Part shown: positions 37,352 through 59,941 of the stretch, piece after piece | Layout of the letters: every line of letters begins with the position of its first letter | How positions within the stretch are numbered: the first letter of the stretch is position 1 | Source of the DNA: Flavisolibacter nicotianae | GTDB taxonomy: Bacteria; Bacteroidota; Bacteroidia; Chitinophagales; Chitinophagaceae | Direction of reading: 5' to 3' | Assembly (NCBI RefSeq): GCF_003628535.1 | Contig: NZ_RBCI01000001.1 | Coordinates: forward strand, 496,001-560,000 | Length of the DNA stretch: 64,000 nt | The notes under the pieces: model-generated | Databases searched by the model: none | Seen by the model: only the letters and a program-made list of their open reading frames with translations | What the model was told of the DNA's origin: nothing | Translations under genes and position numbers: made by a program

Positions 37352-39418
37352 TTAAACGGCCGGTTTGTTTTGCAGCAAACCCCGGCTGTTAACGGCAACC
37401 TGCTTTTCCGCCTGGAGAAACTGGAGCACCTGCCAGGCTTTTTCCTTCCAGTTGGCGGGAAGCTGCGCCACCAGTTCATCGGCCGTCAGCGCTTTTTGAG
37501 CCAGGTGATTTTTGATCGCGGAGGCGATCGTTGTAAATTCATCGGTTGTCATGCCGGCCCGGCGCCGGGAGAGGCAGTTGTCGCAAATGCCACAGTCGGC
37601 TGCCGCCCCGTCGCCAAAATAGGTGCTGATGAAACGGCTACGGCAGGAACCGGTCTTCAGGTAGTCCACCATTGTTTTTACCCGCTCAATAAATTGCTCT
37701 TTGCGCCGGTTGTATTGCGCCAGGTTGATCTTCAGGTCCCGGGTGGCTACACGGTTTTTGCGGAGGATGATCTGCGGCGAATCGTTTTGCGGCGTATAGC
37801 TGATGATACCAAAGGCCGTAATGCGGCGAAGCTGTTCTTTGACCCTGGCTTCGTCTTCCCGCAGCAGGCGTGCTACAACGGCTTCGGAAATAAACACCGG
37901 GAAATCATAAATGCCTTCGTAGGTGCGAAGCAGCAGGACCAACAGCTCTTCGTGCTCCGGGTGGTTCCGGTAAAATTCGTACAACTGTTCTTTCGTGGTG
38001 GTAAAGCCAAGGGTCGATGGAATGAAATTCTTTTCGTTGTAGCTGATCCAGCCATCGCTTTCCAGCGCCTGCAGGGCATAGAGGGCCTGGTGAACATTCA
38101 GTTTGAAGTTGCGCACAAATTCATCAAAACGAAAGTCATAGCTCCTGTCCTGCCCCGTGTGCACGTGGATTTGGAGGTAGTTTCCCAGCGCTTCATAAAC
38201 CGCCTGGATTACCTCGAAGGTCGGAAACCGGGTAATATGGAGATTTTCCAGTTCCTCCACATCCTTTTCGTGGTAGAGCAGCACGGCATAGGCTTTTTTC
38301 CCGTCGCGGCCGCAACGCCCTGCTTCCTGGTAGTAGTTTTCGAGGCAGTCGGGGGCATCCACATGCACCACCAACCGCACGTCGGGCTTGTCGATGCCCA
38401 TGCCAAAAGCATTGGTGCAAACGATGATGCGGGTTTTGTTGTCGATCCAGTCCTGCTGGCGCCTGTTGCGCTGGTCCTGTGGCAGGCCCGCATGGTAAAA
38501 ATCTGCCGACAGGCCGTGCATCTGCAGCAGGGCCGCCATCTCGGTTGTGCGCTTGCGGCTTTTGCAATACACGATGGCACTACCGCCTACCTTTTTCAGA
38601 ATATCGACCAGCTTTGCAGGCTTGGCGTCTTCGCGAAAAACAGAGTAGGATAAATTTTCCCGCTTAAACGACTGCCGGAAAATCGTAAAGCCCCCCCGCC
38701 CCTCAAGGGGGGATTGGCTAGTGCACAAAGGCCCGCTTTTCGACGATACCGTGTTTTCTGCAGACTGTTTGATAGGCGAGGTTCGTGCGGTGGAAAATCC
38801 TCTCTTAGGAGGCAGGGGGGCCGCTAATTTTTCGCAGATGTCTTCCTGCACCCTTGCCGTTGCCGAAGCCGTTACAGCCAGCACCGGCACGCCGGGCAGC
38901 TCTTCCCGCAGCGCCGCAATCTTTAAATACGAAGGCCGGAAGTCGTATCCCCATTGCGAAATACAGTGTGCTTCGTCAACGGCTATCAGGTTGACATCCA
39001 GCGCGGGCAGGTATTCTTTAAAGAGCGACGTCTCCAGGCGCTCCGGCGAAACATAGAGAAACTTGAAATACGACTGCCGGGCATTTTCCAGTGTGCGGAT
39101 CACATCTTTCCGCTGCATGCCGGAATAAATAACCAGAGCGCCGATGCCGCGGCTTTTGAGGTTCTCCACCTGGTCCTTCATCAGGGCAATGAGCGGCGAC
39201 ACTACCAGGCAGATTCCTTCCTGCGCCAGGGCCGGCACCTGGTAGCAGATGGACTTGCCGCCACCGGTGGGCAGCAGGGCCAAGGTATCCTTTCCGTCAA
39301 GAATGGACTGGATAATCTCCTCCTGTTGCGGACGAAAGGCCTCATAGCCCCAGTAACGGGATAAAATGTCGTGGATAAGCAAAATGCAAAACGTCAAACG
39401 CGAGACGTGAAAATTCAT
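37352..39418 (-). CDS. recQ: RecQ-family DNA helicase carrying an in-frame repeat insertion
   Basis: A 688-residue ATP-dependent 3'-5' DNA helicase of recombination repair. Motif I is LLPTGGGKSICYQ (49-60), motif II AVDEAHCISQWG (147-157), motif III AVTASATA (181-188), motif VI YYQEAGRCGRDG, and the zinc/RQC module has CRSRFISTYFGDG ... CGICDNC. Residues 200-243 (nt 38690-38821), between motif III and motif IV, are an insertion with unusual composition (PLPPKRGF ... SPLEGRGG) that coincides exactly with a palindromic DNA element. Activity should be retained if the insert forms a surface loop. A -7 box lies 17 bases upstream. Confidence 0.93.
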   Translation of the reverse strand: MNFHVSRLTFCILLIHDILSRYWGYEAFRPQQEEIIQSILDGKDTLALLPTGGGKSICYQVPALAQEGICLVVSPLIALMKDQVENLKSRGIGALVIYSGMQRKDVIRTLENARQSYFKFLYVSPERLETSLFKEYLPALDVNLIAVDEAHCISQWGYDFRPSYLKIAALREELPGVPVLAVTASATARVQEDICEKLAAPLPPKRGFSTARTSPIKQSAENTVSSKSGPLCTSQSPLEGRGGFTIFRQSFKRENLSYSVFREDAKPAKLVDILKKVGGSAIVYCKSRKRTTEMAALLQMHGLSADFYHAGLPQDQRNRRQQDWIDNKTRIIVCTNAFGMGIDKPDVRLVVHVDAPDCLENYYQEAGRCGRDGKKAYAVLLYHEKDVEELENLHITRFPTFEVIQAVYEALGNYLQIHVHTGQDRSYDFRFDEFVRNFKLNVHQALYALQALESDGWISYNEKNFIPSTLGFTTTKEQLYEFYRNHPEHEELLVLLLRTYEGIYDFPVFISEAVVARLLREDEARVKEQLRRITAFGIISYTPQNDSPQIILRKNRVATRDLKINLAQYNRRKEQFIERVKTMVDYLKTGSCRSRFISTYFGDGAAADCGICDNCLSRRRAGMTTDEFTTIASAIKNHLAQKALTADELVAQLPANWKEKAWQVLQFLQAEKQVAVNSRGLLQNKPAV
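38690..38821. repeat. 132-bp palindromic element inserted in frame in recQ
   Basis: The two 26-base ends (38690-38715 and 38796-38821) are inverted repeats of each other with 20 of 26 matches, and each end is itself nearly palindromic (cccctcaagggg; cctctcttaggagg). The total is 132 bases, exactly 44 codons, corresponding to residues 200-243 of RecQ. The core between the ends is less G+C-rich and not palindromic. Similar ends occur in the non-coding region near 59585-59635. No target duplication was obvious. Confidence 0.8.
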
Positions 39419-59573: not shown

Positions 59574-59941
59574 CGATGGCCAGCCTCCAAAGGAGGGAGT
59601 GGTGGCCTCCCCAAACCCCTCCAGGGAGGGGCTTACAACCGCACAGACCCTTGCTTTTGTACGATACTTCAAGCCTTCATCTTACTTTAGGATGGAGGCT
59701 TTTGCTGCCGTTTGGCGTCTTCGCCAAAGGCTTTTTCTTTTGCCCCGGAGGGGCCTCGTGTTAATAGAAAGAAAGCGTAGAGGTGAAATAAAGCTCCGCA
59801 GGAGCGATATATTTTATGTTTCCAGCGACAGAATAACGATTGAACACCTGTTGCGTCGCACTCTTCAACGTTCAGTACAATGATCGGCGCCACGGACATC
59901 CAAGGGAAAAAGCCTTCGCTGCCGCGGGGGCAGGGTCGCCC
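59574..59941. repeat. Intergenic region with G+C-rich palindromes
   Basis: No protein gene. At 59584-59632 are paired palindromes (cctccaaaggagg and cccctccagggaggggctt), the same style as the ends of the element in recQ. At about 59745-59815 a second motif set occurs (gccccggaggggcc; gctccgcaggagc followed by gatatatttta), also of a kind repeated in Bacteroidota genomes. Confidence 0.6.

Follow-up and report, generated by a model that had tools for sequence, protein, structure and literature searches.

RPEs, the protein-coding palindromes known from Rickettsia, are described as palindromic elements of about 150 bp that fall into several families and have many in-frame copies in unrelated metabolic genes (PMC10969869), and an in-frame palindrome is also described for them elsewhere (PMC2635572). 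For homing nucleases, splicing by an intron or intein is what allows entry into conserved coding sequence, according to a further source (PMC3943268), and a DUF559 gene has been placed in the EDxHD homing family in the inteins section of a fourth (PMC9403480). Here, we describe a palindromic element that lies in frame in recQ of Flavisolibacter nicotianae, within a window of 64,000 nucleotides (the whole stretch of DNA that was analysed; features in Table 1), together with the family to which it belongs. Full-length members consist of two inverted palindromic arms flanking a DUF559 reading frame (EDxHD or PD-(D/E)XK type), and it is these members, not the recQ copy, that encode the homing-family nuclease (PF04480). 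To our knowledge, what moves protein-coding palindromes such as those of Rickettsia is a long-standing open question, and it becomes testable with the present family. We put forward tentatively, at slightly less than even confidence, that these elements are a new class of Bacteroidota selfish element, namely splicing-free homing nucleases that reside as in-frame domains of host proteins that are conserved and often essential, carry palindromic arms, and decay into protein-coding palindromes; if true, RPE-like elements in general could have arisen in this way. The open-access literature searched, judged mostly by titles and the openings of abstracts, yielded no account of such elements, with subscription papers and preprints outside the scope of the search.

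The recQ element resembles RPEs in form (138 bp with inverted arms, and inward-facing pairs of 134-530 bp in its own genome) and in lying in frame in unrelated genes (as pairs in recQ, tryptophan 2,3-dioxygenase (TDO), NadE, PDH E1 and RlmD; as tandem or single units in a helicase and DnaE2), a likeness that rests on form and in-frame location and not on a comparison of arm sequences. The present family differs in belonging to Bacteroidota and in having a full form with a DUF559 nuclease between the arms; no such nuclease is mentioned for RPEs in the accessible part of the first report (PMC10969869). With EDxHD homing endonucleases such as I-Bth0305I it shares a related nuclease domain, conserved targets, recurrent sites, and empty, full and scar alleles, whereas here no intron or intein was found, the nuclease apparently remains within the host protein as one of its domains, the arms are palindromic, and cutting is presumed. 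Inteins and mini-inteins also lie in frame in conserved proteins and occur with and without a nuclease at one site, but the scanned insert-bearing proteins are without an intein-family match, and we assume that the arm peptides (SPLxGxGG-like) are not splicing blocks. The REP/BIME repeats associated with RAYT are likewise short, GC-rich hairpin units with inverted pairs and many copies; in contrast, the copies described here include genic, in-frame ones, the nuclease is of another family, and RAYT-like genes lie amid other repeats.

Table 1. The recQ element and related features, in positions of the window
Feature	Position	Strand	Details
recQ host gene, 688 aa	37352-39418	-	single reading frame staying open across the insert
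Palindromic element, 138 bp	38687-38824	not assigned	RecQ residues 199-244
Left arm unit (C-rich hairpin unit)	38687-38746	+	E 1.5e-18 against the unit model; unit in the training set
Spacer, 19 bp	38747-38765		no recognisable nuclease residue (translation read)
Right arm unit, inverted	38766-38824	-	E 1.3e-12 against the unit model; unit in the training set
Lone weak unit of the recQ-arm family (L234)	59613-59664	+	E 0.0012

RecQ was searched in 58 genomes including that of F. nicotianae, of which 32 matched at E ≤1e-100; 30 loci were obtained (G039 and G004 matched but gave no locus, and locus L066 was without a usable frame), and the alignment comprised the window protein and 28 relatives. 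The arms encode residues 199-244, after the DEAD domain (29-191) and before Helicase_C (266-373), and the insert is missing in 27 of the 28 relatives, so that it is not an ancestral loop common to them. The stretch between the motifs DIC and FRQSF holds 59 residues in the window RecQ; in the seven empty genus-mates shown it holds 18 residues (five proteins), 19 (one) or 29 (one). An earlier sequence-only reading had placed an in-frame block of 132 bp, or 44 codons, in recQ; the in-frame insertion stands, but the net gain against most empty genus-mates is 41 residues (59 vs 18), so that the proposed size slightly exceeds the true one, with a few residues of the loop replaced. The remaining relative (L055, in genome G001) has a different insert in the same place, with 174 residues between the two motifs. 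Its loop is 156 residues larger and contains DUF559 and inverted arms of a second type, unlike those of the window; the G001 assembly is incomplete (78% complete, 720 contigs). Among named relatives, Flavisolibacter longurius is the closest in RecQ sequence (73%).

The inverted ends of the recQ block match in 20 of 26 bases, exactly as the sequence-only reading had counted. A 40-base alignment of one arm against the other was equalled by none of 2000 dinucleotide shuffles of the recQ arms, its score was also attained by 6 of 5976 random 137-mers drawn from the window, and the single-strand fold of the whole element is unexceptional (z -1.16). Since random segments reach the same score and the fold is ordinary, the recQ palindrome by itself is weak evidence, and proof of the insertion comes from the family copies and the empty relatives. 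A repeat search of 301 bp with default settings found nothing.

A blast search with the recQ block against its own genome gave 22 matches at E ≤10, about 11 of them below 0.01. A model of the arm unit was built from 22 copies, all of which recur among its matches, and yielded at least 91 matches at E ≤1 and at least 79 with at least 23 bits, both lower bounds because 150 of 1319 candidates were scored. Among the matches listed, 25 pairs of neighbouring units lie less than 600 bp apart, with 23 inward, two tandem and none outward (five of the inward pairs include one unit below 23 bits), which makes the arm units the ends of elements that span 134-530 bp. The units form 66 clusters, whose surroundings were read except for six with all units below 23 bits. 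Five inward pairs lie inside a gene that continues on both sides (recQ, TDO, NAD synthase NadE, the fused pyruvate dehydrogenase E1 alpha/beta (PDH E1), and RlmD), a ligase-associated DEXH helicase contains a tandem pair, and the error-prone DNA polymerase DnaE2 contains one unit on its own. Arm units also supply the start of LeuB, HisC and a MurU-like transferase, and further units, by reading, are apparently C-terminal tails. The remaining units are intergenic, with many between genes, and most elements in this genome are without a nuclease. The half-palindrome suspected near 59.6 kb is the lone, weak unit of Table 1, around which no long host frame continues on both sides. A recent in-frame insertion with palindromic ends, belonging to a spread, RPE-like family with in-frame copies in other genes, is thus supported. 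Target duplications, also raised in the sequence-only reading, were looked for at the elements and none were found (the best-match sum was 40, whereas shuffles averaged 47.9 and 459 of 500 reached the observed value). Open frames number 4.2 of 6 per arm against 3.9 by composition (17 of 300 shuffles as high), and the openness of whole elements is 0.83 against 0.53 (3 of 200 shuffles as high), both weak differences. Three mosaic elements (L226, L248 and L265) combine a left arm of the recQ type with a second-type, GGAGAGGGCCGGGGTGAGGTG-like arm on the right. At L275, the upstream gene (by eye, HisD) seems to gain its C-terminal tail, and HisC its N-terminal leader, from the two arms of a single element at 2501-2744.

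DUF559 was found at E ≤1e-10 in 104 of the 244 genomes of the family Chitinophagaceae. Among the 150 matches listed, frame lengths are bimodal (89 of at least 280 aa, 61 of at most 220 aa, none between), and the long-frame matches examined are inserts or N-terminal fusions in conserved genes. A non-random set of 96 domains was read, consisting of the best-scoring loci, 60 further loci with a frame of at least 280 aa, L055, and those of the F. nicotianae genome. Their hosts are LeuS (33, at two sites), IcmF (10), MetH (10, at three sites), ArgB (8, N-terminal), AroC (7), MetG (4), CinA (4), adenine deaminase (3), Lhr-type helicase (2, including L118), RecQ (1) and TDO (1), the rest being seven other hosts (one in IspG) and six short frames. 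Host identity was confirmed by Pfam or NCBIfam in one or two proteins per named host, and was assigned by clustering and reading in the rest. Insertion sites recur across genera in LeuS, AroC, MetH, MetG, IcmF, CinA and ArgB. Inverted arms at p ≤0.01 surround the nuclease in 56 of the 76 copies inside a host, 8 of the 11 at an N-terminus and 5 of the 6 in short frames, and occur at 3 of 168 control positions 1.1 kb away; this test took 93 of the 96 domains, with 200 shuffles per test and 100 per control. In many genera, nuclease and palindromes apparently remain part of the protein, examples being chorismate synthase and leucyl-tRNA synthetase. In one LeuS (L078), tandem copies of an SPxERGxDIPN peptide lie to the left of the DUF559 insert.

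The F. nicotianae genome itself contains three good DUF559 matches and one weak match. In TDO, the domain lies in frame between two recQ-family arms and the frame is open for 517 codons; the second is fused in frame ahead of ArgB, and the third has a stop within the match and lies near a lone unit (L261/L030). The leader of the MurU-like transferase is an arm in this genome (L253) and DUF559 in G157 (L158). Compared with known structures, the TDO domain matches the endonuclease-like 3hrl (E 6.7e-21) and, weakly, the mobile intron protein 3r3p (E 0.0026), which we take to be I-Bth0305I. Residues E16, D45, E56, H62, D71 and R74 (alignment numbering) are kept in all 96 domains, these six being polar, catalytic-type or structural, and D58 is kept in 95. 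The nuclease is under purifying selection in close pairs, with dN/dS of 0.05-0.10 against 0.04-0.06 for the host flank in five pairs (nuclease dS 0.6-1.4) among the 30 closest listed, and it could be translated from its own start inside the host gene. With nuclease-bearing members in the family, one of them occupying the recQ insertion site of the genus-mate G001, the RPE-like reading of a palindromic in-frame insert holds as far as it goes but is incomplete, and the family appears to work more like a homing-endonuclease element than like a bare palindrome.

Empty, full and scar alleles were found for AroC, whose N-terminal half is present in 229 of the 244 genomes of the family. The full form (490-510 aa) accounts for 7 of the 150 frames listed. 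Among 50 loci read (the best 30 matches and 20 chosen for unusual length), four carry recognisable scars: QRELEGEV in L168, NPGPSPQVEKG in L186, LPNPSREG in L325, and, in L320, an arm and linker that are kept with the nuclease gone. The scars of L168 and L320 occur in the same genus as the full-length AroC of G167 and G179, and L172 and L182 have longer loops that are not among the recognisable scars. These scars fit the product expected from in-frame loss of the nuclease. The AroC frames of 432-446 aa that were read (L314, L315 and L316) have an extra C-terminal domain of about 100 aa, presumably DUF952-like.

On a tree of the 96 nuclease domains, site labels change 30 times against a shuffled mean of 67.6 (0 of 200 shuffles as low), showing that nuclease lineages follow insertion sites; many forks of this tree are open because the alignment has 104 columns only. 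The starred branches force at least four separate nuclease groups at LeuS site 1, at least three at the main MetH site, and at least two each at LeuS site 2, IcmF, AroC, MetG and adenine deaminase, and sites seem to have been invaded more than once by lineages that mostly keep to one site. Nuclease and host histories appear to disagree at some sites: the nuclease data reject the host-gene tree for LeuS1 (p 4e-5), ArgB (0.003), IcmF1 (0.029) and MetH2 (0.036), with LeuS1 and ArgB alone surviving correction for five tests, and do not reject it for AroC (p 0.085). The nuclease is more alike than the host in 1 of 231 pairs at LeuS1, 0 of 21 at AroC, 1 of 28 at MetH2 and 7 of 36 at IcmF1, with ArgB as the exception (18 of 28). 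Nuclease identity tracks that of the host at MetH2, CinA, MetG and Ade (r 0.76-0.94), and the correlation is low at IcmF1 (0.13) and LeuS1 (0.26). Because nucleases are mostly less alike than their hosts, long residence is a better fit than homing that is frequent and recent. Inheritance and a presumed horizontal movement both seem to play a part.

We infer that the nuclease would cut the empty allele at a conserved site and that repair would then copy the element into the cut allele, with no processing of the protein. Inserted in frame, in a loop, a linker or a terminus of a conserved protein, the element would be translated with its host without splicing; the nuclease would later be lost through in-frame deletion, in frame because the host gene has to stay open, and the palindromic arms would persist as a scar. 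The recQ block, with two arms and a 19-bp spacer, fits the stage expected after such a loss, and is probably either the remnant of a selfish, unspliced, homing-like element that no longer has its nuclease or a small version of one that is not autonomous. We infer that this copy formerly bore a nuclease rather than arriving without one; with no nuclease residue in the spacer, a small mobile form that never had a nuclease fits equally.

The short recQ spacer and the many intergenic pairs and single units would also suit a small palindromic transposon of RPE or MITE type, moved by an unnamed enzyme, with DUF559 as an occasional passenger and the recQ copy always without it, as would the involvement of DUF559 in only two of the 23 inward pairs or their neighbourhoods in the F. 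nicotianae genome (TDO clearly; L261/L030 with a free DUF559). We consider such a transposon unlikely, given that arms flank DUF559 in 56 of the 76 internal fused copies across the family, that in other genomes nuclease-bearing members occupy this recQ site and this MurU-like start, and that target duplications, which many transposases leave, were not found. Old domain fusions that help the host in repair or defence, with the arms as hairpin debris, would account for the low dN/dS of the nuclease (0.05-0.10 in five pairs, slightly above the host flanks) and for the correlated nuclease and host identities at several sites. However, the host functions are unrelated, the distribution is patchy (DUF559 in 104 of 244 genomes; the full form in 7 of the 150 AroC frames listed), seven sites have each been reached by at least two to four nuclease groups, and AroC carries scars, which together render old fusions improbable.

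Dispersal as REP repeats by RAYT, a Y1 transposase, would match the short, GC-rich palindromes, their frequent inverted pairing and the presence of Y1_Tnp genes in the same genome, but is very improbable, as the four Y1_Tnp loci are, by eye, surrounded by other palindromes and not flanked by recQ-family units. The palindromes amid which these RAYT-like genes lie (L103-L106), unlike the recQ family, include GCCCCGAAGGGGC and CACCCGGGGTCTTCGCAGA. An intein, a group I or II intron or an ancestral RecQ loop is hardly credible: the recQ block does lie in a variable loop between both helicase lobes, and DUF559 is assigned to the EDxHD homing family in the inteins section of one source (PMC9403480), but the segment is missing in 27 of 28 RecQ relatives and the frame runs through it. 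Against a group I or II intron, L233 and L236 gave no Rfam match at E values up to 0.1; against an intein, no intein family appeared among the matches of the scanned insert-bearing proteins.

Beyond the family, 162 of the 395 genomes searched in the phylum have DUF559 at E ≤1e-15. In another family of the same class, three loci carry it in LeuS, and DUF559 also occurs in MetH and restriction-enzyme-like proteins in that family and in other classes (all hosts by eye). In annotation, what look like DUF559 "fusions" or SPLxGxGG-like peptides of Bacteroidota proteins may be mobile inserts and not host domains. In other Bacteroidota, DUF559 also lies inside restriction-enzyme-like proteins (L294, L297, L302 and L290; hosts by eye).
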